A DNA stretch of 49,514 nucleotides from the IMG/VR virus record IMGVR_UViG_3300037847_004728, positions 1-49,514 of that record; one strand, given 5' to 3'. Shown in pieces: positions 8,928 to 47,613 of the stretch; within the stretch, counting starts at the first letter, position 1; each line of letters starts with the position of its first letter. A program made the translations under genes and the position numbers. Under the pieces are notes generated by a model. That model had not been told where the DNA came from. It did not search any database and saw nothing but the letters and a program-made list of their open reading frames with translations. Source of the stretch: a virus.

Positions 8928-9422
8928 ATGTCTGAATTGTTTTATCCAACACTAACCTCCATTCCCCGCGTCCAAGTGGGTGATTTGATGTTTCGTCGTA
9001 CGCTTGTAAATCAGTACGAAGAAGCCATGGTGGTAAGTATTCTGAGTCCCGATAAAACGTCTGAGAGTTGGACGGCGACTGTGATGACAAAGAATGGAAT
9101 CGAGTTTGTCAGCGGCACCGTTGAGCATCGTTCGATTCATGATTGGATGCCCAAGGGCTGGGTGTTTGATGAGGACAAGGTTGGTTGGGTTCCACCGAAG
9201 AGTATCTTGCGTTCTGACGACGCTGAGATCGAAGATCCTGTTGAGGCTGAACGAGTTCATGACGAGGTTCGACTTGCAATTCCGGCTCCGTGGAATGACG
9301 AAAAGTACATGTCTTGGCGTTCTCGTGTGATGAAGTCTCAACCTACTTTGAAGGGAACACAGGGAATCTATGATAAGTTGTCTGCAGCGTGGAAGCAGAA
9401 AGAGTATGAGATTACGCTCTAA
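8928..9422 (+). CDS. Hypothetical virion-module protein, 164 aa
   Basis: A 164-residue protein with a beta-type first half (RVQVGDLMFRRTLVNQYEEA; SWTATVMTKNGIEFVSGTVE) containing aromatic clusters (HDWMPKGWVFDEDKVGWVPP) and a charged helical C-terminus. AAGAAGG precedes the ATG. No known domain is recognised. It sits between the adaptor and nozzle candidates, so a tail-completion or chaperone role is possible, from position only. Confidence 0.6.
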   Translation: MSELFYPTLTSIPRVQVGDLMFRRTLVNQYEEAMVVSILSPDKTSESWTATVMTKNGIEFVSGTVEHRSIHDWMPKGWVFDEDKVGWVPPKSILRSDDAEIEDPVEAERVHDEVRLAIPAPWNDEKYMSWRSRVMKSQPTLKGTQGIYDKLSAAWKQKEYEITL

Positions 9423-9435
9423 ATGAGGTGATTCT

Positions 9436-21217: not shown

Positions 21218-24200
21218 ATGGCTGAAACAATTGTCCCAGCAGAGCAGAATTTGTCTAACGATTCTGAGATTGACGTCACGGATATTTCCGCGAACGAAGA
21301 TCTCGAGTTGCAAGAAGATAACATTGATTTGAAGCCTTATACTTTGGCTGAAACAATTCGGTCGCAACGAGCACTTGCTTTAGCCCCAGATCAGCGAGAA
21401 GACTTATCAGGTAGATTGCTGTCACTTCCTGAGATTGTAGATCTGCACAGCAAGCGGCTGGGTATTTCAAAGGCGCAACTCAACCGGGCAGCTAAGAATC
21501 AAGGTTTAGATCTAAACGTCATCGTTGAGGGTGTTGGTCGTCAAGGCCGTGACATTAATGAGATCTTCACAGAGTTACAGGACTTAGGTTCCGTAGCATT
21601 TGACCCACCTGAAACTCGTATTGAGAAGATGCGAGAGATTCGACGAAAGCGATTACTACCTCAACGTGAAATCGACATTGCTAAGTTAGCGAACAAGCGG
21701 ATTGATGAGGGCAAGAAAAAGTTTAACTTTAGTCCCGAAGAGCTTGCGGTCGACCGACCGCAAAAGACCGTCGACTTTAAGAAGATCAAAGATCCGTCCA
21801 AGCGTCAGGCCGCAGTCGCGGAGCTTGTTTATGACATGGGGTCTGACACGGGTTTGAGCCGTGATCAAATGATCGCTATTATTGCTAATGGTCTGGGCGA
21901 AAGTCAGTTGAATCCAACAGCCGTCAACCCTGTGAATGAAGACTCTCACGGTGTCTGGCAGTTCAACCGTCAAGGCTCAGGTGAAGGTTCTGGGTTTACG
22001 GTAGAGCAGCTTCAAGATCCTAAGTTTCAGATGGATAAGATCATCAAAGCTGTAGCTGATCGCGATGAACTTAAAGGATTTAGAGACACCAATCTGGATG
22101 CCAACCAACTGACCCTGGAGTTCATGCATCATTTCGAGAAGCCTGAATTTGGTAAGGGAAGCTCCAAAAAAGATATTGAAGCAAGAAAGCGTAGGTTGTC
22201 TTACCTACCTGCGGCTGAACGATTGTTCGATGCTGCGGAGAAAAACTCACCGAAAGCAAAGAACTTAGCTCGCGTCACCAAAGAAAAGGGTGAGCAAGTC
22301 AAGCGAATGATTAACGAGGGGGTCTCGCAAAAGTTTCGGGTCTCAACCGATAGCGAAGCTCCAGGCGGTAACGTAGAAAACGAAATCGCAAAGCCTGGAT
22401 CAAAGGCGTACCAAGAGATCGAAGAGGATCACGAGATTACGTTTAATCCTGAGGTCGCACGTAAGAAGGGTGGCGATGTCAAGCGTGCTCGGTACATGCA
22501 GCAGTTGTTAGCGAAGTATCAGTCGGGTGATTCAGGTGATCAGATTCGAAACTTGTTTGCGGAAGATGCATTTCAAGGCTTGTACTTAGGTGCGGTTAAC
22601 TACGACAAGGGTGTGGTTGCGGGCAAGCTTGGGATAAGTCCGGCTGAGTTTGAGTTGCGGGCAAAAGACCCGCGATCACGAGAGGGTCAAATCTGGCAAG
22701 AGATCCTTCGGGCCAACCGAGATCAAGCAGCTAAGTTCCAAACACTCAACAAGACAGGCGTTCCGGCATTTGTGTCTTACGAGTTTATGGACCCTGACAA
22801 CTGGATGGGTGAGAGCCGAACAAGTTCGGATGATCCATATTTAAGTCGTCTATTTGATGCGGCTGCAGGAAACCGTGTTGAACTTGTCGGTCTGGATAAA
22901 GACAAGATCCCCGTATTCCGAGCACAAAACCACCTGGACTCAGTCGCAGACAAGCTAGATATTTTGCTGAGTATGGGGGCGGGTACGCTTGAGCGGGCTT
23001 TGCGAGGTCCAGAAGGCGAGTCGATTGCAAAGATACTTGCGGAAGGTTCGATTCAAGGCGTAAGAGACGCCAGAAACTTTACTAAGTTTGCTTTGTCGAC
23101 GGAGCTTGCACGAGAGAACGGTATCGCTGCTGTTGGGTTGGGGCTTGTAGGTGTAGGTACTGATGTGATGGCTCCTGACCCCACGATTGGTCTGGCTAAA
23201 GCTGCATCCTTGGCCCGTAAAACAGCTAAGAAAGTTGGGCCTATGCTAAATGCCCGGAAGATTCCCAAGGCTTTAGACGAACTAGACGTAGCGGCAACAG
23301 AACTAATCGAGACCCAAAAGTTGATTAATCGTGCAGAAGAAGAGATTGCTGCAGGAAACTACGAAGAAGGTAAGGCTCTTTTAGATCAAGCAAAAGAACG
23401 AGCGTTAGCTGCGGATAATGCAGAGAGAAACGTAAACGGGCAGTTGCCTCTGCTAATGAAAGAAGTCGATCGAACTGATGGGGTAGTCGCACGAGAACTC
23501 GCACGCGATAACAATCTGCTGACTGGCGGTAAAGAAGCTGATGAGTTGACTAAGTCATTGGGTTTTTCTGACGTAGGCGCGAATCGAGACTTCGTGCATC
23601 CTGCGTTTGAGCGGATCGAAGTTCGCGGTAGCGGTCAAGATCAGTTGGCTCAACGGGCTGATTTCTTTGACATGAATCGAAAGATTGATCGATTGAAAGA
23701 TCTTGTGACAAGCGTACAAGAAGGAACCACAGCAAAACCTTATATCCCACTAGTAATGTCCGAATCATTGCGGCCCTTAGGGGATCAGTTTGCAATTGTT
23801 CTTACCTCTCGTGGTTTTACTCGTGCTCGAAAAGGTCAGCCTGATGAGGTGACTAACGCCGTCAGGGATCTGTTTGATTTCTTGGGCAGCGCTCGTGCGG
23901 CTGACACTCTCGCAAATGACCCAGAGCAGTTTCGAACCAGTCTCAAAGTATTGCTGGATCAGATACCAACCCAGAGACGCGGAAAATCTATCCTCGAAGT
24001 TTTAGACGAAGACATTGGCAAGGCAATAGATAGCGCATCTAAGATTGCTAAGAGTTCAGAGAAAGCGGAAGAGACGGTAGACCGAGCTAAAGAGTTGAAG
24101 GATGTGTTTAACTCTGTAGCGGCAATCGCAGAGTCTCGTGCTGCAGGACACGCGCTCACTCGAGGCGCGATTGCTGGTGAACGCGGGATTGATATTGTCC

Positions 24201-27200
24201 CTTCAATCCCTGAAATAGCCAGTCGTTACGATGAAATTGGCACCAACAAGATCTCTGCTGTCGCACTGGATTTCCGAAACGAGCTTGAGCGCGCCTTCCC
24301 CGCCCTCAAAGGCGATGCTGCAATGCACATCGCTCGCAATCTCGACGACCGATTAAAAGCTACCTCACGTCGAACCAACGAACCCATTGAAGTCATCTAC
24401 GAGACTCGCGACTACAACAAGATTATCCCTGACCTCCGACGTAGGCAGGCAGCAGAAACGGGCGAAGCGGCACCTGATGTTGAGTTCACACCGCTTAAGT
24501 TTGGCGAAGAGCAGCTTACGACAAAAGAAATAAGAGAGCTTGGTGATGAGATCGATACGGATCTTGAACCAGGCATGGTCATCAAAATTGAGGACGGCAA
24601 GCTTACGGTTCGATCTATTGAGTTGCCTGAGCAGCTTCGAAAGAAGGGCATTGCAACTAAGCTATACAAAGCAGCGCTTCGCCGAGCCAAGAGTGAAGGA
24701 CTTGAGTTTACAAGTGATGCTAATCCTGCGGTTGAGGTTGAGAGAATCTACGATCGGCTGATGGATTCTGGTATTCCAATCAAACGAGTCACACGTAACC
24801 TTAGTCCGGGTAAGTTTGAGACTCGCTACACAATTTCAAAAGACGATCTGGCAAAAGTGTCCGACGACCTTTTGACCGTTGTAGACGAAGCGGAACAATT
24901 TAAGCGGTACCAAGAACTTTGGATGCCCGATTTTGTATCTGATACACAGAAAACTGTTCGTGCAATGGAGGAAGCTACCACCGTCGAAGACTTTATGTTC
25001 GAGATCAACAAGATTGCTCGACATGAATTAGACGCAAAAGAGATGCAAGCCGTAGTTGATTGGCTTTCTACAAAGAAGATTAAGGTTGGGTTCAGGGGGT
25101 CTCAGTTTACTTCAACCGACCCCGCAGATATTGTCCAGGCAGAAGAGGCTTTTGCTAAAGCGTTTGCCGAGTACATGGATGGACTGCCGCCACCAACCGA
25201 TGAAACCGAAACTGTGTTTGATCGTGTGGGCAATCGAATCGCAGATTTACTTTTCTCTGCAAAGAATGCGCGGGCTGAGGGGGCTAACTTTAACCCCACA
25301 CCTGAAATTGAGAAAGCTTTCGACAGCTTACTCATGAGACAGAAACCAAGCAGTAAAAATGCACCCAATCTATTCCGCGCTATAAAAAGAGCTTTGATTG
25401 ATGACTTACCCAAGAACTCATCTAAAGATTTCTTACTTAGCATTGCGAGGGAAACTGATCGATTGGGTCAACCGATTTCAGTTGATGAGCTACAGAAACG
25501 TGTATCTGATGCTGTTAAGCGACACATGGAGTTGTCTCTTAAAAAGGGCGAAGAAGTTTCGGCTGATGAGATTCGAATTGAGTTGCCTGTAGCTGTTTCA
25601 CTTGGTGGTTTGTTGTCCCAAACTGGACCCAAAAAATCATTTACATTGGCTGAGTTCAGTCAAGGCGCTTTAAATTACGGTCAACGTAAGCGTCTTGCGA
25701 GCGTTTCTGCGACTCGAAACATCGCAGCCGATAGTGAAATTAAAGCCATCCGAGAACTGACACCAACTCAAATCATAGATCAATACTTAGTTGAGACTGA
25801 TTTGTTTAGAAAGTTTATCGCACGAACTTACTTGGGGTTTGATGCCCTTGAAAACATGCGTGAACTACCGCCAGAAATTCGACAAGCTGTTCTCGCAGGT
25901 ACTCGAATGACTCAACAAGCTGTAGGCGATGCTGTTGCGCTTGTGTCTGACGGTGACTTGAACAACTTGCTTCGATACTTGACAGGTGACCCCACAGTAA
26001 AACTCAAAACAGGCCGACAAATATTCAGTTCTGGGCATAACCATGTGTCTGACGGATTTGATTCTTTCAGTAGATATATTTTGGCTTGGGGCAAAAAGAA
26101 TCCAGTAGCTTACAACAAGTTAGTCGAGTACTTTGAATCAGGTAAGCTTGGCACTAAGGTTGCGCTTGGAGGTCAAGCGCCAGATATTGCTGAGGCTACA
26201 AGGTCTTTTATACTTAGTGACCAGGGCAATCGTTTAGTCAAAGACATTTTTAGTTCTTTGAAACTGGGTCGGTCGGTAAAGACTAGCAAGGATGCGATTC
26301 GTCCTGAACATCTACAAGTATTGGAAAATATTTTTTACTACTCAGGCGAAACTCGACGAAAGGGTAAGTATTTTGAGGGTACCAATCGGCGTAAGTTTCA
26401 ATCATTCTATGACTCGCTGAATCGTCTGTTCCCTGCAAAAACCGCAAAGGATGATCCAGTAGCAAACCGTACTGCAGTTTTGTTTGCGGCACATGGTATG
26501 GCATCCAAAGCTCGAAAGGAGTGGGTCAATTTAGGTGTCGCTGTTGACGCGCAAACAGCCGCTGATTTTAAGAAATGGATTATCGGTGAGGGTCTTGAGA
26601 CACCAGAACAAATGGCGAGAGTTCGTCAGGCGTTTCAAGTTCATGGTTACAACCCAAGGTTCCTGGAGGCTGTAGAGCTTGAAGGTCTTGATGTTTGGGT
26701 TCCGCAAGCTGCTAGAGACAAATTAGGATTAGCGATGGAGCAAGCAATTGACAGGACTACCCAGGCAAGGGGGATGGACTTGTTTGCGAGAATTGCTAGT
26801 GGTGTCGAGGAAGGCAAAACATTTAAAGACATTTCAGTCGCGTTTACTTTCCGGTACCTAAAAACAAAAATGGTTCGTGGCCATTTCCTCTTGAAGACAA
26901 GGTACTTCTGGATGAACACGTTGGACCACTTCAATCAGATGAGTCAGATTGTAGGGTTCCGTCCAGCGTTTATTTCTACCGTGCGCTTAATTCCTCAGTC
27001 GCTCGCAACAAACCCACTGGTTCAGACCGCTTTGCTCGGCGTTCAGAGCAGAAGTAAGGAAGATGCGGGTGAGTACTTGCGCGGGCTTTTGTCTAATGCA
27101 GGAGACAAGGGTGCTGAGGTAGCGTCAATGATTACGCGAGCAGGTAAGTGGCACGGTTCTCTTGATGCCATGATGGACGGCAGAGAGGGTTTTGTGTTGT

Positions 27201-28963
27201 CGGCAGGTGTGCCTTATGCCAACAGAGACCTCCGTAGAATTGGTGTCGAGGAAGGGTTAGCTGCTTCGTTCCAAACGGCTGAGTTGAGCACGAAAATTCG
27301 TCGGCAAGGCGAGATGTTTTTGGAGGACTACAAAAAGCAAACAGGGGTCAGCAAGATTCTTGGTGCCGACTTAGCGCGTGACTTAGCTAAGGTTGCCGAA
27401 GACTTGGCTGAGGGTTGGAGTGAGCGCGAACGTTTTGGTGCCTACCTCACATTAGTCGAGATGGGTGTAGAGCCAAGGAAGGCAGCACGTCTCGTTATTG
27501 ACGCGCTCTATGATTACGCAGGAACCATGTCGCCTGCGGATAGAAACTGGTTGATTCAGATATTCTTCCCATTCTGGGCCTTCCAAAAGAACGCTAACCG
27601 TCAGTTGGTGGATGTCTTGTTCAGCCCGCGTGGTGCGTATCGTTTAGGTGTTTTGCGCCGAAGCTATGATCGGCAAGCTGAGTTCGCATCAGAAATTGCA
27701 TTCCAAGACATGGTTGATCCGCTTGGAATCAACACAGACATCATGGATGAGAACGAGGTCGAGGCTTACGAAGCGTTGAAAGAAACCTTAGCTGATCACT
27801 ATGGTATGCCTGTGTCGCAACTGCCCGAAGATTTACGGCGGCAAATTCGCTTAGTCGTGACTGGTCGATCAACAATTTTTGAGAATGGTCGATTGTATCG
27901 ACAAGACGCACAGGCTGACTTTATTTCAAACCTATCGTATGTTGATCCAAAGACGGGAGAAGAGCTACCTCGATTCTTCAAAGGTCGATTCCCACGATCA
28001 CTTGTAGAAAAACCATCACGATCAACGATGCCTACCTGGGCGGGAACCCGTGATGCCGGTTTACTCCCATACGCCGTTACCGAGCAAAACAAGATCTGGC
28101 ATGACTTAATGTCAGCCACCTACGGGGGTGACCGAACGTACACCGCGTTGATGTACCCGGAGCAAAGCTACAAAGCCGCCGCGAACTTTGGTTTTAATCT
28201 AGCGTCTTCATACTTCGAAATCGGACGTCAAATTGTTACTGGTGGGGCGTCGTACTTTACGAATGATATTTCAAAGGGCGGTGAACTGTACACATGGGCG
28301 TACCCAATGAAGGAGTTGTTACGACCAGAAAGTGCTTTGTTTGTAAGTGACGCGGCTCGAATGGTGGGTATTGCCGATCCCGGTATGCCTTACGAGGTTG
28401 CGCCGGTTATGGCTGGACTGCTTCGGTGGATGGACATCGAAGTGTTACCCGTTGACGGAAGAGATGATCCATTCAAAAAGCGACTTGCGTACAGCGAATT
28501 TAAACGTCAATTGGCCGCAGGAGAGATTGAAACCTATCCTGATGACCTGTATTTGGACGGTAAGACTTTAGTGCCCGAAAGACGCTACTACATCAACGGT
28601 GGTGTTGCTTCATTTGTTATGCGGAACATGTTCCCTGCTTTCGACCAGATAAACACAATCTTTAAGCAAATGGAAAAGTCGCAACCAGAAGAGCTTGCGG
28701 GTCTTCGTGGAGACCTACAAAGAACGTTCCGGGTTGTTACGGGTTTGAAAGTTCAAGACATTAACCCTGACAAGGTTGCTCGTGGTGCGGGCTATGAAAA
28801 GGCCGATGAAGTTGATGCTAAGCAATTGTTGAAACTCAAGCAGAAACAAAACCTTGATTACCTCAAGCTTGATTTGATTCAAGCAATAGAAGACCCTGAG
28901 GTTAGGGAAACTTTGGAGCGGCTGAAAAAGTCTGATCCAGGTGACCAGGAGATCGACCTCTAA
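21218..28963 (+). CDS. Giant ejection protein with lysozyme-like and GNAT-like domains, 2581 aa
   Basis: A 2581-residue protein, the largest in the window. Residues about 205-350 resemble phage tail-type lysozymes: LSRDQMIAIIANGLGESQLN with the expected catalytic Glu at 228, then SHGVWQFNRQG and a late FMHHFEKPEFG segment typical of this fold; it would cut peptidoglycan during DNA entry. Residues about 1090-1190 contain a GNAT acetyltransferase-like motif A: VRSIELPEQLRKKGIATKLY (1131-1150) with the RxxGIA acyl-CoA loop. The rest is mostly helical, with an aromatic WLIQIFFPFWAFQKNANRQ segment near residue 2110 that resembles C-terminal parts of polyvalent phage proteins. It ends the ejection-protein run. 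T7 gp16 and P22 gp16 are functional analogues; the GNAT activity is unproven and the Glu228 role is inferred. Confidence 0.7.
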   Translation: MAETIVPAEQNLSNDSEIDVTDISANEDLELQEDNIDLKPYTLAETIRSQRALALAPDQREDLSGRLLSLPEIVDLHSKRLGISKAQLNRAAKNQGLDLNVIVEGVGRQGRDINEIFTELQDLGSVAFDPPETRIEKMREIRRKRLLPQREIDIAKLANKRIDEGKKKFNFSPEELAVDRPQKTVDFKKIKDPSKRQAAVAELVYDMGSDTGLSRDQMIAIIANGLGESQLNPTAVNPVNEDSHGVWQFNRQGSGEGSGFTVEQLQDPKFQMDKIIKAVADRDELKGFRDTNLDANQLTLEFMHHFEKPEFGKGSSKKDIEARKRRLSYLPAAERLFDAAEKNSPKAKNLARVTKEKGEQVKRMINEGVSQKFRVSTDSEAPGGNVENEIAKPGSKAYQEIEEDHEITFNPEVARKKGGDVKRARYMQQLLAKYQSGDSGDQIRNLFAEDAFQGLYLGAVNYDKGVVAGKLGISPAEFELRAKDPRSREGQIWQEILRANRDQAAKFQTLNKTGVPAFVSYEFMDPDNWMGESRTSSDDPYLSRLFDAAAGNRVELVGLDKDKIPVFRAQNHLDSVADKLDILLSMGAGTLERALRGPEGESIAKILAEGSIQGVRDARNFTKFALSTELARENGIAAVGLGLVGVGTDVMAPDPTIGLAKAASLARKTAKKVGPMLNARKIPKALDELDVAATELIETQKLINRAEEEIAAGNYEEGKALLDQAKERALAADNAERNVNGQLPLLMKEVDRTDGVVARELARDNNLLTGGKEADELTKSLGFSDVGANRDFVHPAFERIEVRGSGQDQLAQRADFFDMNRKIDRLKDLVTSVQEGTTAKPYIPLVMSESLRPLGDQFAIVLTSRGFTRARKGQPDEVTNAVRDLFDFLGSARAADTLANDPEQFRTSLKVLLDQIPTQRRGKSILEVLDEDIGKAIDSASKIAKSSEKAEETVDRAKELKDVFNSVAAIAESRAAGHALTRGAIAGERGIDIVPSIPEIASRYDEIGTNKISAVALDFRNELERAFPALKGDAAMHIARNLDDRLKATSRRTNEPIEVIYETRDYNKIIPDLRRRQAAETGEAAPDVEFTPLKFGEEQLTTKEIRELGDEIDTDLEPGMVIKIEDGKLTVRSIELPEQLRKKGIATKLYKAALRRAKSEGLEFTSDANPAVEVERIYDRLMDSGIPIKRVTRNLSPGKFETRYTISKDDLAKVSDDLLTVVDEAEQFKRYQELWMPDFVSDTQKTVRAMEEATTVEDFMFEINKIARHELDAKEMQAVVDWLSTKKIKVGFRGSQFTSTDPADIVQAEEAFAKAFAEYMDGLPPPTDETETVFDRVGNRIADLLFSAKNARAEGANFNPTPEIEKAFDSLLMRQKPSSKNAPNLFRAIKRALIDDLPKNSSKDFLLSIARETDRLGQPISVDELQKRVSDAVKRHMELSLKKGEEVSADEIRIELPVAVSLGGLLSQTGPKKSFTLAEFSQGALNYGQRKRLASVSATRNIAADSEIKAIRELTPTQIIDQYLVETDLFRKFIARTYLGFDALENMRELPPEIRQAVLAGTRMTQQAVGDAVALVSDGDLNNLLRYLTGDPTVKLKTGRQIFSSGHNHVSDGFDSFSRYILAWGKKNPVAYNKLVEYFESGKLGTKVALGGQAPDIAEATRSFILSDQGNRLVKDIFSSLKLGRSVKTSKDAIRPEHLQVLENIFYYSGETRRKGKYFEGTNRRKFQSFYDSLNRLFPAKTAKDDPVANRTAVLFAAHGMASKARKEWVNLGVAVDAQTAADFKKWIIGEGLETPEQMARVRQAFQVHGYNPRFLEAVELEGLDVWVPQAARDKLGLAMEQAIDRTTQARGMDLFARIASGVEEGKTFKDISVAFTFRYLKTKMVRGHFLLKTRYFWMNTLDHFNQMSQIVGFRPAFISTVRLIPQSLATNPLVQTALLGVQSRSKEDAGEYLRGLLSNAGDKGAEVASMITRAGKWHGSLDAMMDGREGFVLSAGVPYANRDLRRIGVEEGLAASFQTAELSTKIRRQGEMFLEDYKKQTGVSKILGADLARDLAKVAEDLAEGWSERERFGAYLTLVEMGVEPRKAARLVIDALYDYAGTMSPADRNWLIQIFFPFWAFQKNANRQLVDVLFSPRGAYRLGVLRRSYDRQAEFASEIAFQDMVDPLGINTDIMDENEVEAYEALKETLADHYGMPVSQLPEDLRRQIRLVVTGRSTIFENGRLYRQDAQADFISNLSYVDPKTGEELPRFFKGRFPRSLVEKPSRSTMPTWAGTRDAGLLPYAVTEQNKIWHDLMSATYGGDRTYTALMYPEQSYKAAANFGFNLASSYFEIGRQIVTGGASYFTNDISKGGELYTWAYPMKELLRPESALFVSDAARMVGIADPGMPYEVAPVMAGLLRWMDIEVLPVDGRDDPFKKRLAYSEFKRQLAAGEIETYPDDLYLDGKTLVPERRYYINGGVASFVMRNMFPAFDQINTIFKQMEKSQPEELAGLRGDLQRTFRVVTGLKVQDINPDKVARGAGYEKADEVDAKQLLKLKQKQNLDYLKLDLIQAIEDPEVRETLERLKKSDPGDQEIDL

Positions 28964-37602: not shown

Positions 37603-37620
37603 CGAATGAAAGAGGTCCAG

Positions 37621-39549
37621 ATGATTGACCAACCCGAATTAGAATACGTAGTAAGAACATTTCAGAACGACGAACAATTCATGGGCGAAGTGGAAGCTTT
37701 GATTCCTGGATGCATGGTCTACTTACGTCGCGACGGTAAACGTTGGGCGCGACTTAAAAACGTAAACCCAGACTATCTTGATGCACGAGATGAGTGGCGA
37801 ATCAAATCACCGCTACACGCTGCGTGGCTTGTTGAGCGAATGCTGAACCACTTAGGGGTTCGATACTGGTGCCAAGCAACAACAGGGTCAATGATTGTTC
37901 AGCCCTGGTCTAACTCACCAGAAAGTCGCCTTGAGCTTCAAGTTGAGGGTGAACGGTTACTGGACCAGTCTATTAGCCGAAAAGAAGTTCGTGAGTACGT
38001 CAGAGACCTCGCAACACCGTATCAACTTATGGGTGTTGCTTGGGCACATTCAAGGCCATACGCGATGAATGTCTGGGCTTGCGGGTCAGGTAAAACCTTG
38101 GGCGCTATTATGTCCTCGACTGCGAGAAAGGGTGACATTGTAGTTGTTTGTCCAGCCAAAGCACGTCATGTCTGGTGGAGCCAAGTACAAGAGTACACAA
38201 ACATAAAGCCATTTCGAGTACGGCCTAAAGCTGAAATACGAAAGAAAGATCAGACCTTTGCGGAGTACACCCAAGAGTGTCGAATGGAAGGACGCCGTCG
38301 CTTCGTGATTGTTGGAGCCGAGTCTATCGCTGATAACGTAAACCTTATTCGAGGCATGGAACCCCGCATAATTATCTTCGACGAGATCCACACCCACGGC
38401 AATAGTAAACGTTGGAAGGCTGTACACAACGCTAACGGTACCGTTCGTTTTGAGAAACGCAAAACATCTGCCAGCAACAACCCAAACTCTGCCGTCAACC
38501 GACACGCCCGCGCCGTCTCCATCATGGAGGTATCGCGAATCGCAAGCGTTCAACTACGCATCGGACTGACAGCAACGCCACTCGACGACGGTCGACCCCG
38601 CCGCCTTTGGTCCCAACTTGATCTCCTTGCTCCTGGTGGGTTCTCACACAGCTACTCCAACTTTGCCCGCAGGTACTGCGCTGCACGTCCTGGCACCTAC
38701 GGTGGCCTCGACGATGGAGGATCTTCGAACATAGAAGAACTCAAAGCTCGATGCTCATTCATGGTGCATGAGGTTCCATACAGCGAGTCACACTCGAGCC
38801 TACCCAGCACACGAGTACAAGTCGACTACCTGACAAATTCAGAGTTGAATCGAGCCGACAGGTTTAGCGACGACCAAACATTCACTCAAGCAGTGCGGCA
38901 AATAAACCGTGAGACGGGGAAAAGTCATGACGGTCGGGAGCGCGTCGTTGAGGTTCGTCTTGCGGAGGCTTGTAGCCGCAAGCGTAAGTATGTGATTGAG
39001 GAAGCTATTGAGGGTCTAAAGGGCGGGGGTAAGGTGGTAATCTTCACTGCTCGTAGGCGAGAGACGGAGTTGTGGGCGCATCAATTGCGTAACCAACTAT
39101 CGAAAGGTGATGAGGCGCAGAAGGATGTGCCTGTATGGATGGCTCATGGTGGTGTACCCGAAACAGAACGCGATGAAATGGTTGATGCTTTTCGTAGTAG
39201 CGATGGGGCTTGTTGTCTGGTGGCTACAGGACAGAGTGTGGGTACTGGCGTAGACGGTATGCAAACAGCAAACCTGGCCATCTTTGCGATGCTTCCGTGG
39301 AAGCCTGGTGACTTTGTACAGTGGAAGGGACGGTTTGATCGTCTCGGTGGTAGCCCCACACTACTCAAGGTTGTGGTCGCGCAAGGAACATACGACGAGC
39401 GTGTGGTTCAGATTCTTGTCGACAAGTTTGGCCCTATCGAGACCTTCTTGAAAGCAGACGAGCTTGATGGTTTGGGGGAGAAACTATTGGGTATGGAAGA
39501 CGAAGATGCCCTTGTAAGCAGCATTATCAACAAACTGGAGGTAGCATAA
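37621..39549 (+). CDS. Superfamily 2 helicase/ATPase
   Basis: A 642-residue SF2 (SNF2/DEAD-like) helicase. Motif I is ACGSGKT (153-159), motif II IIFDEIH with DEIH at 254-257, motif III GLTATP (315-320), and motif VI QWKGRFDRLG (567-576); VVIFTARRRETELWAHQL is motif IV and LVATGQSVGTGVDGM motif V. The Q-motif side begins TPYQLMGVAWAHSRP. Residues 1-125 form an N-terminal extension. It probably remodels or unwinds DNA at forks or recombination intermediates. The ATG at 37606 would lie before the predicted transcript start, so 37621 is used (AGAGG upstream). First gene of the replication operon and coupled to the next gene by TAATG. Confidence 0.82.
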   Translation: MIDQPELEYVVRTFQNDEQFMGEVEALIPGCMVYLRRDGKRWARLKNVNPDYLDARDEWRIKSPLHAAWLVERMLNHLGVRYWCQATTGSMIVQPWSNSPESRLELQVEGERLLDQSISRKEVREYVRDLATPYQLMGVAWAHSRPYAMNVWACGSGKTLGAIMSSTARKGDIVVVCPAKARHVWWSQVQEYTNIKPFRVRPKAEIRKKDQTFAEYTQECRMEGRRRFVIVGAESIADNVNLIRGMEPRIIIFDEIHTHGNSKRWKAVHNANGTVRFEKRKTSASNNPNSAVNRHARAVSIMEVSRIASVQLRIGLTATPLDDGRPRRLWSQLDLLAPGGFSHSYSNFARRYCAARPGTYGGLDDGGSSNIEELKARCSFMVHEVPYSESHSSLPSTRVQVDYLTNSELNRADRFSDDQTFTQAVRQINRETGKSHDGRERVVEVRLAEACSRKRKYVIEEAIEGLKGGGKVVIFTARRRETELWAHQLRNQLSKGDEAQKDVPVWMAHGGVPETERDEMVDAFRSSDGACCLVATGQSVGTGVDGMQTANLAIFAMLPWKPGDFVQWKGRFDRLGGSPTLLKVVVAQGTYDERVVQILVDKFGPIETFLKADELDGLGEKLLGMEDEDALVSSIINKLEVA

Positions 39550-39719
39550 TGGACCTGAATGACGCCCGATTTCACCGCAAGGTTATTCCTTGGAGAAAGC
39601 TTGAGGCTGAGGGAATCGAGCCGCGCAAAGTAATGAAGGAAGCCCAGAAGCAGAAGATGTGGGTACTGGCTCGAAAGGCTGAACACCGCTGGCAAAACAA
39701 CTTGAGGTTGGCTGAATGA
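39549..39719 (+). CDS. Small basic protein, 56 aa
   Basis: A 56-residue open frame, MDLNDARFHRKVIPWRKLEA..., filling the gap between the helicase and nuclease genes. Its ATG overlaps the helicase stop (TAATG) and its TGA overlaps the next ATG (ATGA), strong evidence that it is translated. It is basic, helical, with several Trp (WRKLE, MWVLARKAEHRW) and no known family. It may be a helicase or nuclease partner, by position only. Confidence 0.75.
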   Translation: MDLNDARFHRKVIPWRKLEAEGIEPRKVMKEAQKQKMWVLARKAEHRWQNNLRLAE

Positions 39720-40705
39720 AAAAGATTCTCATTGATGCAGGTCGTTCATCACGAGGTTGGTCACGTATCGGTACCTTTTCTCGATGTCCGCAGTTGTTCG
39801 CTTACGGTCAGCGACTCAATCTGACTATGATCCCCGCTCACGCTTTGACTCGTGGCAGCATGGGACACATCCTCCAGGCGCATCAACACGCCATCTGGGG
39901 GGCTGCTTCCGAGGAAGGTGTCTGGGTTGATGAGACATGGCACGATGATCCCACTGTGTTTCTCGAGCCGGAAGAAGCCGTACAGATGTGGTGCGATACC
40001 AATGGTGGGCATGAGCACTTGGAGCGAATGCTTGAGACGTTTGAGCGGTACATGTCGGAGCATCCTGAGCCTCCGGGTAATGTAATTAAAGTCGAGTACC
40101 CAGTGACTGCTGTGCTGGGCAACAAAGATAACCAATGGGGTTTGTGGGTTGTTCACCTGGACGACGCTGACTTTGATCGCCGCGCCGTAAAAGTGAAAGC
40201 TTGGGATGGCGGCATCATTCAGCCTACACCACTGAACTGCCCTGGTCATCCAGAATCAGGACAAGCGTTGGTTCTTACCAGAAGACTGGACATGGTGACA
40301 AAAGAGAAGAGCGGTCGCACATTTATCTGGGATCACAAACATCAGGCAAGAGTGCAAGCCAACAAAAGCGTGGACGGCTACGCGATTGATGGTGGATTCG
40401 CTGCATTCAGAATCATGGGTAAGCAGATGTACGGATCAAACTTCGGCGGTCTGGGGCTCAACCTGATTCAAACGCAGTCGCCCTGGAGGGTAGCGAGACC
40501 TATGGTTCCAGCGACACCTCATCGAGACGCGCACTTTGCTGAGATGCTTTGGAGAGAAGAGCACCGACTGGCTCGGCTTGAGGTAGACTCGCCAAGCTTC
40601 TGGGACTGGCCCAAGGTACAGCACGAGACTTCCTGTATTGGAAGGTACGGCGCGTGCCCAGGCATTAAGTTTTGTTTCTACGGCGATGCTGCCAAGACCA
40701 TTTAG
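39716..40705 (+). CDS. Cas4/RecB-like PD-(D/E)XK nuclease with Fe-S cysteines
   Basis: A 329-residue protein. Cys24 in FSRCPQLFAY and the C-terminal trio Cys307, Cys314 and Cys320 (SCIGRYGACPGIKFCF) follow the one-plus-three cysteine plan of the Fe-S nucleases AddB and Cas4. Between them lie RGSMGHILQAH (GxxxH, His51), Glu127, LDMV (Asp192) and WDHKHQ (Asp206, Lys208) for the PD-(D/E)XK active site, and a QxxxY-like QANKSVDGY segment. Such enzymes resect DNA ends for recombination. It lies directly before the Sak4-like ATPase. The spacing C-x6-C-x5-C is looser than in classical Cas4, so cluster binding is likely but unproven. Confidence 0.75.
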   Translation: MKKILIDAGRSSRGWSRIGTFSRCPQLFAYGQRLNLTMIPAHALTRGSMGHILQAHQHAIWGAASEEGVWVDETWHDDPTVFLEPEEAVQMWCDTNGGHEHLERMLETFERYMSEHPEPPGNVIKVEYPVTAVLGNKDNQWGLWVVHLDDADFDRRAVKVKAWDGGIIQPTPLNCPGHPESGQALVLTRRLDMVTKEKSGRTFIWDHKHQARVQANKSVDGYAIDGGFAAFRIMGKQMYGSNFGGLGLNLIQTQSPWRVARPMVPATPHRDAHFAEMLWREEHRLARLEVDSPSFWDWPKVQHETSCIGRYGACPGIKFCFYGDAAKTI

Positions 40706-40713
40706 GAGAGGTC

Positions 40714-41691
40714 ATGATTACAACTAACGAACATCCACATGTGATGATCACCGTATACGGTAAACCCAAACAGAAGAAGACCAGTGATGCACTGGCCGCA
40801 TTTCCGAGAGCTTTGTTTCTTGGTGTGCCGTCAGCGATAACGCTGGTCGCACAGAACGAGTTGGGGTTCACACCATCAGTTCACTCGGACTCACCAAAGA
40901 ATTTGACTGAGCTTGTTAGTATGCTCAAGAGTTTTACGGAGATGGACCAGACTGACTACGACGCCTTGGTCATCGACGACACGAGTCACTTGTGCCAACG
41001 CTCCATGGTTGAGTGGCAAGAAGCGGCCCCAACTGGGCGAAGCGGCAAGAAAGACAAGTTCTTTCCGTACCAACAATTGAGTCAACATCTACTGGAGATC
41101 GCACACACTGCGCGGTACCTCAATGTTCACTTGCTTATGAACTTTCACGAGCGCACACCGGGCACAAATGCGGAGGGTAGATTTTGCCCTGGTGGTCCTG
41201 ATGTGCCTTCGCGTAATCAAGTTGAGACCTTACCGTCATGGTGTGATATAAATGTTCGCTCTATGATTGATCCTACGTACCCAGATCCTTGGTTCCCAAG
41301 CATTTACTACTGCGATCCGACTAACCCTGAATGGGTGACGGGGGATCGAACAGGCACATGCTCGGCCAAGACACCGGGTAACTTGAGAGAGATTCTGCGT
41401 GCCAGCGAAAGCAACTATCAACTGAGCCGTCTTCCCGGTCTGGAATGGCAAGATGAGGTTGCAGAATCTGTAGCAAACGCTATGATTGAAGGTGCTGCTG
41501 TTCAGGAAGCTATCCAGTCAGCAGTGTCAGGTCGGACTGACAATCGGTTGCATCTTCGTTGGGCGTGTCAGGATGGCATTGCTCGTGGCGTTTTGAGGCA
41601 GCAGAGCACACAGTCTTTATTTGACTTCTCGGAGCCTGAGACAAACAAAGCTTCATCTCCGAGTCTTCCACCGCCACCACCAACTAAATAA
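40714..41691 (+). CDS. Sak4-like RecA-fold ATPase (recombination)
   Basis: A 325-residue protein with a degenerate Walker A, VYGKPKQKKTSDA (14-26): Gly16, Lys22 and Thr23 match but the second Gly is Lys21. Walker B is ALVIDDTSHL (84-93). The following HLLEIAHTARYLNVHLLMNFHERTP resembles the RecA-like core of phage Sak4/AAA_24 single-strand annealing ATPases. The end is a Pro-rich tail. GGAGAGG precedes the ATG at 40714; an earlier in-frame ATG overlaps the nuclease gene. Located with the Fe-S nuclease and an SSB-like gene, as commonly seen for phage recombination modules. Confidence 0.65.
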   Translation: MITTNEHPHVMITVYGKPKQKKTSDALAAFPRALFLGVPSAITLVAQNELGFTPSVHSDSPKNLTELVSMLKSFTEMDQTDYDALVIDDTSHLCQRSMVEWQEAAPTGRSGKKDKFFPYQQLSQHLLEIAHTARYLNVHLLMNFHERTPGTNAEGRFCPGGPDVPSRNQVETLPSWCDINVRSMIDPTYPDPWFPSIYYCDPTNPEWVTGDRTGTCSAKTPGNLREILRASESNYQLSRLPGLEWQDEVAESVANAMIEGAAVQEAIQSAVSGRTDNRLHLRWACQDGIARGVLRQQSTQSLFDFSEPETNKASSPSLPPPPPTK

Positions 41692-42368: not shown

Positions 42369-42372
42369 ATGA
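42355..42372 (+). CDS. Leader mini-ORF 2 (MPYFL) overlapping the polymerase start
   Basis: ATG-CCT-TAC-TTT-TTA-TGA. Its start abuts the stop of mini-ORF 1 and its TGA overlaps the polymerase ATG (ATGA, 42369-42372), the same overlap used elsewhere in this phage for coupling. It offers a route to translate the polymerase without its own ribosome site. Confidence 0.3.
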   Translation: MPYFL

Positions 42373-45110
42373 CCAAGAATCCAAAACAATGCGGTGCCCG
42401 TTGCGATGAGTGTCCTCTCGGACCTAACGGCGCACTGCAAAAAGATGAGTGGCGTCCAGTTACCGGTGAGTTCCATCCAGGAGCAAAGATACTTGCACTG
42501 GGTGAGGCACCACGGGCCGAAGATGTTTTGGGTGGTAGACCCATCATGGGTAGCGCAGCCCCTGAGTGGGCAAGGTTTCTATCTTCCGCAGGATGGAACA
42601 GAACACACGTAGATCTGGACAACGTCATTGCGTGCAAGCCACCGGGTAAAGAGGGTGGAGCTTGGAACCGAATGGAGAAGTCTCTTGATCGGTTGAACAA
42701 GAAGCGCATCGCGAAAGGACAAGATCCGTTACCGCATCCGATTGATTGTTGCAGACCCCGACTTGAGTCAGTGATCAATCAGTACAGCAACTTTATTGCC
42801 TTTGGTAAGACCGCAACTCGAGTGTTGTCCGGTCAGTCTTCGAGCATACACGCTATGCGTGGTGGTCCTATGTACATCGATGACAACTGGCAGTGGTCTC
42901 TTGAGCCAACGACAAAGAAGATGTTGGCTACCTTTTCTCCTTACTATGTGACGAGAGCCCCGAACTGGAGGCCCGTCATTGAAGCTGACGTATCCAAGGC
43001 CCGTCGCTGGTTCGACGACACACTCCGTTGGACGGAGCCAGACTCACAGATGAACCCGACGCCAGAAGAGCTTGAGGCATTCCTGGCACAACCTGCCCCA
43101 TTCTGGGCATACGATGTTGAGACTGACGGCATCGAACCACTGGAGTGCAACCTCCGCACGATCGCCATTGCTATCCCCGACCTGGACGCTGAGGGCAAAG
43201 CTGCACGCTCCACCCCTCACCAGGTTTCAAAAGCTATTGGTGTTGGTATCCTCTCAACTGATGGGGTCACTCGCATCTACCCACCAGAACAAGAACGCCG
43301 TATCCGTGAGATTCTACGCAAGGCTTTCACTGACGGTCGAGTCTGGGTAGGTCACAACGCTGGCTACTACGATCGAATGGTTGTCGAGACACAGTTTGGT
43401 GTCACACCTGCACCTTTGGTAGACACACTATTTCATGCCCGGTTTAGATCTCCTGACTTACCAAAAGGTTTGAAGACGATTGGCTCTGTACTCACTGATG
43501 TTGAGCGTTGGGAAACAACTGAGAAAGGGACGAAGATCTCAACGGGCAGTCAAGACGATACAGAACTACTCAAGTACAACATCATCGATACAGTAGTGAA
43601 CGCACGAATCACGGTGCCATTGATTGATGCATCTGTTGAGATTGGTGCATTCAATGATTTGAGTCACCAGTTTAAACCGAGTCACTGGGGCATAGAGAAG
43701 CCGTGGAACTTGAACGAAGTTGATCACGCTACACAAGAGATGTGCGTTGGAATGCACAAGGCGGGCGTTTGGATTGACCAAGAACTACGAAGCTCGCTTG
43801 AGTGTGAGTATGAAATCTCAGTCCGCAAACGACGCAAAGAACTACAGCGGCATGTAGGCGCTGACTTTAATCCTGGTAGTGTGGATCAGATTCGCAAGCT
43901 TCTTTATGACGATTGGAATCTGGGGATTCCTGCTTCGATGTCAGCGAATGAGTTTTATACGGAGACAGGCGCTCCAGGTACAGGTGACGCAGTAATTCGT
44001 GGGCACCTCGCATCGGGTCAGTTGAGCAGTAATCAAGAATCATTTTTGAAAGAGCTTCGCTTGTATCGTCGGGAAAAGAATAAGATTTTAGGTACCGTGT
44101 TGGTTCCGCTTAGGCGCAGAAGCCAAGACCCTAAGAAGGGTTTGGTACCTGAGGATGGTCGCGTAAGGTCCACCTGGAATGCTCACGTTACCAGTGTAGG
44201 AAGGCTATCAAGCTCCGGTCCAAACCTCCAGAACATCGGAAACAGAAAAGGTCAGGGGCGATTGAAGTCTGTGTTCGCCGCGCCTCCTGGACGCATACTC
44301 GTTGGTGCTGACTTGGATCAAGCACATCTGCGAATCACGGCGTGCTACTGGAAGATACCGCGACTACTGGAATGCTTTGCTACAGGTAAAGACCCGCACA
44401 ACTTGCTCGCTTACGACGTTTTCGGAAAAGACTTTAAGAACGCAAGTGGGTGGGGGCCTGATGGTTTTAGCCTAAGTCGCAAGCCTTCGGGTGGTGAAGC
44501 CAAAGCGATGCGAGATGTCATGAAGACTTTCAGATACGCATCTATCTATTGGGCAGATCCGATGACGGTCTGGCAGGTACTGACCAGCACAGAAACTGAT
44601 GACGGTAAGATGCCTTACTTGAAGTTCGAGCCGAGGGAAGTCCGTCACTTTCACAACAAGTGGTTGAAGGCTGAACCCGAATGGATGGATGCGTGGAACG
44701 ACATGCTGAACTTGTACAGCCGACAAGGGTTTATGGAAGAGCCAATCTTCGGTAGGCGATCAGGTCCATTGTCTGACGGCAAGAAAAATGAGGTCGTGAA
44801 CTTTCCTATCCTTGCGGCTGAGTCGTCCATCATGAGACTGGCTGAGCAAGCTGTGATCGGACAGTTTCCATTTGACTACGCGGGCAAAGGCACCGGCATG
44901 ATCCATCAATGCCACGACTCGATTGGCGTTGAAATACCACTGCCTGATTATCTACCACCAGACTGGAAACCAGTGAAGGGAGAGCCACTGCCTCCTGAAC
45001 TAGAAGAAGCCAGACGAATAGTAGAAGAGTCAATGACTGTGACTGTCCCTGGATGGGATGTTAAGATGACTGCTGAGGGTGAAGTCGGACGCAGCCTCAA
45101 AGACATTTAG
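42369..45110 (+). CDS. polA: Family A DNA polymerase with N-terminal UDG-like domain
   Basis: A 913-residue replicative polymerase. Residues 1-215 resemble a family 4 uracil-DNA glycosylase: Cys12/Cys15 (RCDECPLG), GEAPRAEDVLGGRPIMG (45-61), Cys89 (NVIACKPP), Cys127/128, so a 4Fe-4S site is likely; but the motif-2 region reads TFSPYYVTR with Ser190 where His is expected, so glycosylase activity is doubtful. The 3'-5' exonuclease has DVETD (Asp249, Glu251), HNAGYYDRMV and YNIIDT. Polymerase motifs: A, GADLDQAHLR (Asp648); B, RDVMKTFRYASIYW (Arg715, Lys719, Tyr723, Tyr727); C, CHDSIGVEI (His849, Asp850). Tyr723 is the counterpart of E. coli Phe762. No ribosome site; see leader. Confidence 0.88.
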   Translation: MTKNPKQCGARCDECPLGPNGALQKDEWRPVTGEFHPGAKILALGEAPRAEDVLGGRPIMGSAAPEWARFLSSAGWNRTHVDLDNVIACKPPGKEGGAWNRMEKSLDRLNKKRIAKGQDPLPHPIDCCRPRLESVINQYSNFIAFGKTATRVLSGQSSSIHAMRGGPMYIDDNWQWSLEPTTKKMLATFSPYYVTRAPNWRPVIEADVSKARRWFDDTLRWTEPDSQMNPTPEELEAFLAQPAPFWAYDVETDGIEPLECNLRTIAIAIPDLDAEGKAARSTPHQVSKAIGVGILSTDGVTRIYPPEQERRIREILRKAFTDGRVWVGHNAGYYDRMVVETQFGVTPAPLVDTLFHARFRSPDLPKGLKTIGSVLTDVERWETTEKGTKISTGSQDDTELLKYNIIDTVVNARITVPLIDASVEIGAFNDLSHQFKPSHWGIEKPWNLNEVDHATQEMCVGMHKAGVWIDQELRSSLECEYEISVRKRRKELQRHVGADFNPGSVDQIRKLLYDDWNLGIPASMSANEFYTETGAPGTGDAVIRGHLASGQLSSNQESFLKELRLYRREKNKILGTVLVPLRRRSQDPKKGLVPEDGRVRSTWNAHVTSVGRLSSSGPNLQNIGNRKGQGRLKSVFAAPPGRILVGADLDQAHLRITACYWKIPRLLECFATGKDPHNLLAYDVFGKDFKNASGWGPDGFSLSRKPSGGEAKAMRDVMKTFRYASIYWADPMTVWQVLTSTETDDGKMPYLKFEPREVRHFHNKWLKAEPEWMDAWNDMLNLYSRQGFMEEPIFGRRSGPLSDGKKNEVVNFPILAAESSIMRLAEQAVIGQFPFDYAGKGTGMIHQCHDSIGVEIPLPDYLPPDWKPVKGEPLPPELEEARRIVEESMTVTVPGWDVKMTAEGEVGRSLKDI

Positions 45111-45606: not shown

Positions 45607-47613
45607 ATGTCTACGCGACCATACGTCGAGCACGTTCACAGTAACTTGAAATCGCCTCGACCCAACGGAGATGCATGGGGCATCGAACTTGGACCAAAAA
45701 CTCTACTTGTGGGGTCGAACACAAGTCACAAAAGCAGTGTCGTTCAATCGATTGAGCTTGCTCTTGCAGGCTCTGCCGATGATGTCATCGGTCGTAGTAT
45801 AGTTTCTGATGCGGCACTTCTTCTTACTCTTGCACCAGGAGATGAGCTTGGCGTTACGGCGAGACTTAGTGATGGCTCTACGGCGAACTACAATGCGCGT
45901 AGAGAAGACGGTAAAGTTAAGCGTCCTCAGCATGATGGCCCAGGCACAAACAGCCTGGTTCACCGCTCGGTTGCAGCGGCGCTGTCAGGATCAGCAACAA
46001 CAGCACGTAAAGCCTTCCTGGAATGGTCGTGTGACGACGTTACCCGTGACGACGTTTTACTCAGTCTACCAGAAGAGCTACATAATAAGTACGCAGACAT
46101 CGCAAAGCACCGAGGCAAAAACTTAGACGAGACTAAAACACTCATCGAAGTTTTGAACTACGCGAACTCACGGGCACGCGAGTTGTCCAAAGAGATCAAG
46201 GGCGCAGAGATTGTGCTCGAGAGTATCGGAGACACGCTTGATGCGAAGCCATCAGATAAAGACCTCGACAAACTGAGGTTCGCTGTTGCCGAAGCGCGTG
46301 AGATTCTTGATGTCTCTATCGCTCAGTCAAATGGTGGTCTGACACTCGAAGACAAGAACAAGAAGATTGCTGAGCTTACAGAGAAACGAGACGCTTGGAT
46401 TGACTACAAAGCTCAAGCGGAGTTCTCGATTCGAGATCTTAAGTCTCAGCTTCCTCACAAGGGAGAGAACGTCGATGGTGCGATTGCTATCGTTGATGTT
46501 GCGGTCAAGCATGAGTTGGCTGTGTGTCCTGTGTGTAGTTCTCGTGTTGGTCTCGACCACTTGAAGAACTGCCAAAGCTTCTACCAGGAGCAAAGCAACA
46601 CATGGGAATCACAATCGAGACAGTTGCTTGAGTCAATCAAGGCTGCGGAAGAAAGGTCTAAAGGTTGCGACAACAACATCGTTGCGTTGGATCACGAGCT
46701 TAGAGAGATCGAAGACACACCACTCACAAAGGTAGACTCTCGTGTTCTCCCCGTGCGTGATGCTCAAGATCGCTTGGAAGTTGCAATGACTGCGCTTCGT
46801 AAAACAGAAACCATCAACGATCGCTGGTCAGATTTGATTGGTGCTCAAGAACGGATTCAGTCTTTTCGTGTGGACCAGGAGAACTATCGGGCACTACGCA
46901 TTGCGTGTGAGCGTTCGATTGGATTCTTGCTCGGTGAGAAGGCGCGGACATTCAGTGAGTTGGTTCAGCGGTTCTTGCCTGACGCATGGAAGTTCAAGAT
47001 TGAACTAATGGATGGTGACCGAGAAGTTTTCCGTATGGGCTTTGTACGTCACGGCAAGCTTCATTGTGCGTTGTCAGGTGCTGAGTGGGCCACGGTGATC
47101 ACTGCCGTTAGCATGGCTGTTACATCGAAGATGGCTAAGGATAAGCCTGCTGTCCTGGTTCCTTACGATAGAGCTTGGGACACTCGGACACTGTCTGCAG
47201 TCATGCGGGGCTTCCTCAGCTTCGACGGCCAAGTCGTCATCGCAAGCACCGTTCGACCAATGGGACGTCCTCCAAAAGGATGGACAATCATTGACATGGA
47301 CGAAGTGAGTAAGTCCTGGGTCGAAGGTGAAAAGAAAGTCGAAGAGAAAGCGAAGCCAAAGAAGGCAAAGAAAAAGCCTGAGCGACGTAAAGTTCGTAAC
47401 GAAGGTGGCCTGAGCGTCATCAGTCGAAGCGCACGGAAGCTACAGGAGATGGGCTACGCAATCTCAGACGTACTCACTATGAGTAAGGAAACGGCGCAGC
47501 ATTTGATTAGCAACAACATTCAGCCTGAGCTTGTTGAAATCCAATCTGATGGTGGATTCAAGATTATCAAGGCCGATAATGTGTTGCCGATCTCGCTGCC
47601 GCCGAGTCCGTAG
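45607..47613 (+). CDS. Rad50/SbcC-like zinc-hook ATPase
   Basis: A 668-residue SMC-type ATPase. N-terminal P-loop GSNTSHKSSVVQSI (36-49) has His41 in place of the second Gly. Central coiled coils flank a zinc hook CPVC (Cys307, Cys310). The ABC signature is LSGAE (489-493) and the Walker B-like strand VLVPYDRAW has Asp521 but no following catalytic Glu. The last 110 residues contain a Lys-rich linker (KKVEEKAKPKKAKKKPERRK) and an extra domain. Rad50-type proteins bridge and process DNA ends with an Mre11/SbcD nuclease, none of which is seen here; the Fe-S nuclease upstream might serve instead. Closest analogue: phage T4 gp46. Own promoter and AGGAGG site. Confidence 0.75.
   Translation: MSTRPYVEHVHSNLKSPRPNGDAWGIELGPKTLLVGSNTSHKSSVVQSIELALAGSADDVIGRSIVSDAALLLTLAPGDELGVTARLSDGSTANYNARREDGKVKRPQHDGPGTNSLVHRSVAAALSGSATTARKAFLEWSCDDVTRDDVLLSLPEELHNKYADIAKHRGKNLDETKTLIEVLNYANSRARELSKEIKGAEIVLESIGDTLDAKPSDKDLDKLRFAVAEAREILDVSIAQSNGGLTLEDKNKKIAELTEKRDAWIDYKAQAEFSIRDLKSQLPHKGENVDGAIAIVDVAVKHELAVCPVCSSRVGLDHLKNCQSFYQEQSNTWESQSRQLLESIKAAEERSKGCDNNIVALDHELREIEDTPLTKVDSRVLPVRDAQDRLEVAMTALRKTETINDRWSDLIGAQERIQSFRVDQENYRALRIACERSIGFLLGEKARTFSELVQRFLPDAWKFKIELMDGDREVFRMGFVRHGKLHCALSGAEWATVITAVSMAVTSKMAKDKPAVLVPYDRAWDTRTLSAVMRGFLSFDGQVVIASTVRPMGRPPKGWTIIDMDEVSKSWVEGEKKVEEKAKPKKAKKKPERRKVRNEGGLSVISRSARKLQEMGYAISDVLTMSKETAQHLISNNIQPELVEIQSDGGFKIIKADNVLPISLPPSP

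Follow-up and report, generated by a model that had tools for sequence, protein, structure and literature searches.

The polymerase gene and its surroundings

The window, that is, the whole stretch of DNA analysed, is a 49.5-kb IMG/VR virus record; the longest records among the relatives of its polymerase reach 65–76 kb. An open reading frame of 913 aa (42369..45110, + strand) codes for a family A DNA polymerase made of a UDG-like domain, a 3′–5′ exonuclease domain, and a polymerase domain. In profile searches this frame matches PHROG_17 DNA polymerase (E 2.4e-65), Pfam DNA_pol_A (PF00476) at residues 477–857 (E 1.1e-28), and Pfam UDG at residues 33–198. The polymerase domain (43659..45107, +), delimited with PF00476, contains Asp648, Arg715, Lys719, Tyr723, and His849-Asp850, all invariant in relatives where sequenced. 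The exonuclease domain (43041..43658, +) has a weak match to PF01612 (E 0.00058, under the cut-off) and contains Asp249, Glu251, Asp335, Tyr403, and Asp407, which are kept in 73/73 relatives. The UDG-like domain occupies residues 1–222 (42369..43034, +), as defined by Pfam PF03167, an AlphaFold model, and VIA. An earlier note on this sequence had correctly placed it at the N-terminus and had ended it at residue 215 (43020), whereas it runs to about residue 222 (43034).

The gene lies in a replication block with five other open reading frames. These are, in order, a helicase (37606–39549), a PD-(D/E)XK nuclease (39716–40705), a Sak4-like recombinase (40672–41691), and a 192-aa protein with no assignment, then the polymerase, followed by an SbcC-like protein (45607–47613). 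The window also has matches to portal and head-tail adaptor (phrog_156/332), terminase, and internal virion proteins, a context that fits the short-tailed phage proposed by the earlier note. A frame of 2,581 aa (21218–28963, +) contains a part resembling phage tail lysozymes at residues 200–312 and no further clear match beyond it; it likely codes for a giant virion protein. A scan of IMG/VR for relatives of Rctr197k found none.

Fold and pocket residues of the N-terminal domain

Taken in isolation, the domain matches the Pfam UDG profile (PF03167) with E 5.7e-10 (39.9 bits, cut-off 24.3). It matches NCBIfam UDG_fam4 (TIGR00758) with E 4e-16, at 59.2 bits, which is below the curated 125.3; the fused domain of SPO1 likewise falls under this cut-off. 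Family 4 UDGs in the PDB also match residues 1–222 by sequence. Structure prediction, which the earlier note had proposed, gave a family 4 UDG fold: the AlphaFold model of the domain, built from 20 natural sequences (pLDDT 81.6, pTM 0.82), has its best VIA matches among family 4 UDGs (Z 18.2 to 4ZBX of Sulfolobus tokodaii and 17.9 to 1UI1 of Thermus), on which about 175 residues superpose at 2.7–2.9 Å. UdgX (Z 16–17) and MUG/TDG (Z 11–12) come next in the rankings of Foldseek and VIA. The profile and fold matches place the resemblance far beyond chance, and the fusion of a UDG-like N-terminus to a family A polymerase is thus confirmed. The model of the full-length polymerase has a pTM of 0.58 and its interdomain arrangement was left unused; pockets were compared by sequence alignment, not by model coordinates.

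Residue equivalences come from the HMMER alignment to TthUDGA (1UI0), which pairs 'IKVFPMFHPAYLLRNPS' of TthUDGA with 'KKMLATFSPYYVTRAPN' of the window and so sets Ser190 opposite His155. Motif 2, identified by alignment and in relatives, reads TFSPYYVTR (residues 188–196, 42930..42956, +), and the Ser190 codon, TCT (42936–42938), stands where the catalytic His of HPxY is expected, as the earlier note had read it. The motif 1 region, GEAPRAEDVLGGRPIMG (residues 45–61, 42501..42551, +), is supported by the alignment to 1UI0 and by relatives. It reads GEAPR and not GE(A/G)PG, with Arg49 at the position of Gly44 of TthUDGA, again in agreement with that reading. Glu46 and Ala47 align with Glu41 and Gly42, and Ile59 with Phe54. 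The ED pair is shifted by one residue towards the N-terminus relative to family 4, so that Asp52, not Glu51, lies at Glu47. Hence, the GEAP and ED elements noticed earlier are present, but the spacing is GEAPxxEDxxxGRPxxG and not GEAPxxEDxxGxPxxG. By the same alignment, Asn85 in DLDNVIACK (42621..42623, +) corresponds to the uracil-binding Asn80 of TthUDGA, and Lys94 (42648..42650, +) takes the place of the water-positioning Asn89.

The cysteines follow the CxxC...C...CC pattern of family 4, as had been noticed. The putative [4Fe-4S] ligands are Cys12 and Cys15 in the CxxC (42402..42413, +), Cys89 (42633..42635, +), and one or both of Cys127-Cys128 (42747..42752, +); all five cysteines are kept in 73/73 relatives. 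In conclusion, the fold and the cysteines agree with family 4, whereas motif 1, motif 2, the Asn89 position, and the curated score do not, and for this reason the domain should be called family-4-derived and not a family 4 UDG. The spacing ahead of the last cysteines is also longer than in family 4 (38 residues). This insertion carries a basic patch, N110-K111-K112-R113 (42696..42707, +), recognised by its conservation: N110 and K/R111 are found in 73/73 relatives and R113 in 71/73. HMMER aligns the segment KKRIAK (residues 111–116, 42699–42716) with the R-loop of UdgX, KRRIHK, and Arg196 with UdgX Arg184, which lies at +6 of motif 2 and touches the DNA phosphate backbone (PMC10359453). Position 196 is R or K in 73/73 relatives, and residues that would be expected to face DNA are therefore conserved. 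The UdgX-type covalent chemistry is ruled out: the nucleophilic His109 of UdgX corresponds to Ala115, and none of the 73 relatives has a His at this position.

Pocket loss and constraint among relatives

Two scans of IMG/VR provided 73 distinct polymerases with a UDG-like domain. His190 is present in 53 of them and Asn85 in 37, being gone in 36, and the two occur together in only 19/72; to judge from these residues, about a quarter of the relatives may still excise uracil. The invariant positions of the domain are the cysteines, R57-P58, R164-G-G, P191, R/K196, W200, D207, and K210. The pocket positions, Glu46 excepted, are of middling variability within the domain (percentiles 39–69).

The clade of the window was defined by Arg49 and includes 18 rows. 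Arg49, Asp52, and Lys94 are present in all 18, Asn85 and Glu46 in 17 each, and the equivalent of TthUDGA Phe54 is Ile, Leu, or Val throughout. Position 190 is Ser in 16 members and Ala in two. Since these come from separate contigs and the Ser190 codons include both TCN and AGY, Ser190 is not a sequencing error. The use of both codon classes, seen at 5/38 conserved Ser positions, weakly suggests that Ser at this position is selected and not merely tolerated. The nearest sister group of the clade has retained His190 and mostly has a His at position 85.

A tree was built from the exonuclease and polymerase columns only, excluding the UDG domain. The only distant homologue on a cellular contig (L137) has a branch too long for rooting, and changes were therefore counted on the tree without it. 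Parsimony requires at least three losses of His190 and at least eight changes between Asn and non-Asn at position 85. The pocket has thus been damaged differently in different lineages, while the putative cluster ligands remain untouched. The domain itself is not decaying, as its median dN in the window clade (0.099) is close to those of the exonuclease (0.081) and polymerase (0.085); dS is near 2 and saturated, which makes absolute dN/dS unreliable, and only relative dN was used.

Fusions of this kind are known. The same order of UDG-like domain, exonuclease, and DNA_pol_A in one chain is found in SPO1, PaBG, phiLo, and vir526, and some of the known fusions also have degraded active sites. 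The precedent of SPO1-type polymerases invoked by the earlier note was found in gp31, which has a family 4-like UDG domain N-terminal to an exonuclease and a family A polymerase. SPO1 gp31 shows the reverse pattern of the window: it lacks the cysteines and has Ser for Asn, but keeps the His (MIHPNTVLK). The DNA polymerase I of the PaBG/Lu11/Erwinia jumbo phages, also of family A with an N-terminal UDG domain, shares with the window the lack of the motif 2 His (TLSLNTL in PaBG), but the cysteines and GEAP are missing from its domain as well, and the sequence is highly divergent. The active site of the window is indeed altered, as the earlier note said, but less unusual than it implied. The family A polymerase of Thermus phage phiLo (phiLo_158, MH673673; structure PDB 9QHS, released 2026-03-25) has its domains in the same order, and VIA gives a Z of 13.0 against the solved chain, but its pocket is canonical (CxxC, GEAPG, LTNV, NHPSFVLR); canonical pockets are also found in vir526, ctfzr933, and the Proteobacteria-MAG contig L137. 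As far as the literature was searched, what is new is the clade-wide Ser/Ala190 with cysteines kept, and the repeated loss of the pocket in a domain that remains constrained. Canonical, half-lost, and lost pockets occur on the same polymerase, so that natural variants can be compared to test what the domain does.

Possible roles of the domain

The substitutions of the window have partial equivalents in published mutants of TthUDGa (PMC5387724). The H155S change reduces k2 from 2.3e-1 to 7.2e-5 per s, a drop of about 3,000-fold, and leaves Km unchanged (7.6e-7 M vs 9.7e-7 M); N89A, F54A, N80A, and E47A each reduce activity, F54A by about 17-fold in k2/Km. Family 4 UDGs (TthUDGA 1UI0, S. tokodaii 4ZBX, T. 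maritima TM0511) share with the window the fold (Z 17.4–18.2), the CxxC...C...C cysteines, the GEAP of motif 1, and the Asn80 equivalent. The domain departs from these enzymes at His155 (Ser), Asn89 (Lys), Phe54 (Ile), Gly44 (Arg), and Glu47 (Asp), and in its fusion to a polymerase. Since the substitution that lowers k2 most is present, alongside others, a normal rate of excision is unlikely by comparison with the homologue, and the domain very probably no longer works as a glycosylase. The loss of glycosylase activity proposed by the earlier note is thus strongly favoured by the H155S kinetics, to the extent that the homologue is a guide.

The reading that we prefer, with a probability of about one half, is that the domain is a module that holds DNA and has lost excision in this lineage. 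The replicative polymerase of a phage would have acquired a family-4-type UDG, which would then have lost base excision in the lineage of the window but kept its fold, its putative [4Fe-4S] cysteines, and the residues that contact DNA. Close to the exonuclease and polymerase domains, it would bind DNA non-specifically, as template or as duplex, and so help the enzyme to stay on. The UDG subunit D4 serves the poxvirus polymerase in a comparable way that does not depend on catalysis: replication requires the UNG protein of vaccinia but not its catalytic site (PMC2630940), and this protein attaches to undamaged DNA by way of the backbone (PMC4450493). The analogy is of function only, because D4 belongs to family 1 and is a separate subunit, still active as a glycosylase, which acts through the bridging protein A20. 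Besides Ser190, the further departures at Lys94, Ile59, and Arg49 from an active pocket are in agreement with a DNA-holding role, as are the conserved R/K196 and basic NKKR patch, the repeated loss of the pocket, and the constraint on the domain. UdgX shares the fold (Z about 17) and the basic stretch with the domain, which differs from it by GEAPR instead of GEQPG, by Ala115, and by the absence of the motif 2 His. Against it, the near-constant retention of Asn85 and Glu46 and the presence of Ser190 across TCN and AGY codons hint at selection on a feature of the pocket. Should the domain be a DNA module that does not cut, then phages have repeatedly converted a base-excision enzyme into an accessory of the polymerase, in parallel to poxvirus D4 and from another family of UDG. 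The annotation of fused domains as active glycosylases needs a check of the active-site residues; for PaBG, where such activity was suggested, the UDG domain of the polymerase was described and uracil removal discussed (PMC7412058).

The same retention of Asn85 and Glu46 (17/18 each) and of Ser190 can be explained otherwise: the domain of the clade might flip out and bind a template uracil or related pyrimidine without cutting it, and pause or redirect the polymerase. As H155S does not raise Km and Asn85 is kept, such a reader is conceivable for the clade, but we consider it unlikely. The equivalent of Phe54, whose mutation is costly in TthUDGa, is aliphatic in the entire clade, and the sister group shows the opposite pattern, with His kept and Asn changed to His, so that reading uracil is not a shared function. 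The sensor of uracil suggested by the earlier note cannot be the function of the whole family either, the recognising Asn being lost in 36/73 relatives; only within the clade may the suggestion hold. The Fe-S sensor that it named as the alternative is a conjecture for which the cysteines, at least, are conserved. Genes for ThyA, Thy1, dUTPase, and dCMP deaminase were found in none of three long relatives of the clade, whose records are possibly incomplete, and there is thus no sign there of uracil- or hmU-rich DNA. They are absent from 11/12 long relatives overall, with the same caution about completeness, the exception being one outside the clade (L035), which has Thy1 and a deaminase. The idea that pocket loss resulted from a phage with uracil-DNA or modified bases was rejected, the genes being seen in 1/12, with absence counting weakly. 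Archaeal family B polymerases stall at template uracil by reading ahead. A natural trap of the H155S type, in which an uncut, flipped uracil or pyrimidine in the template gates the fused polymerase, is a more speculative proposal to which we give little credence; if true, it would be a counterpart in bacterial viruses of the archaeal read-ahead, built from a dead repair enzyme.

The domain could instead position the exonuclease–polymerase core or bind proteins of the replisome, with no role towards DNA or bases. It lies in the same polypeptide as the polymerase, and many residues outside the pocket, among them W99, W200, R213-W214-F215, and L219-R220-W221, do not vary across the 20 aligned sequences. 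The vUNG of MHV68, which is also a precedent for a part in replication apart from catalysis, binds its own polymerase without the catalytic residues (PMC10312458). However, the retention of R/K196 and of the basic NKKR patch suits contact with DNA better, and such a docking role is doubtful.

An altered glycosylase, acting through a different residue on some other base or slowly on uracil, is very unlikely. Families 2 and 6 are active without the motif 2 His (PMC5387724), MUG and TDG are among the fold matches, and 15/18 clade members read SPHY, with a His192. But the window reads SPYY, with Tyr192, two members read APSY, and Ala47 and Lys94 stand respectively at the catalytic Asp/Asn position of families 1 and 2 and at Asn89. 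The only His of the window domain are at positions 36, 80, 123, and 161; an intact catalytic His elsewhere in the pocket, which the earlier note had allowed for, was sought by sequence, and none is conserved near motif 2, nor is any alternative catalytic residue. That the domain is a relic being lost, as the free variation at pocket residues might suggest, is highly improbable given its dN and its presence with invariant cysteines in 73/73 relatives, even though these were found partly by that domain.

Among other phages, UDG-fused polymerases of Pseudomonas, Serratia, and metagenomic phages (L146, L147, L148, and L149) adjoin genes for thymidylate synthase, dCMP deaminase, or dUTPase, a proximity that might reflect a connection with modified pyrimidines in the phages concerned. 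In the polymerases of some relatives (L053, about 9833–10885, and also L047, L048, and L123) an insert of roughly 300 residues interrupts motif B at residue about 722. It matches an HNH endonuclease in L053 (PF13392, E 5.4e-9) and is probably an intein. A second intein site is probably represented in another relative, L049 (about 9018–10160), where an insert at residue about 335 of the exonuclease domain has a LAGLIDADG match (PF03161, E 3.7e-7). Finally, Caulobacter phage Kuura has a UDG-like protein with extra C-terminal sequence (L124:3453–4562), separate from the gene annotated as its polymerase; this looks like the UDG–polymerase architecture in split form.
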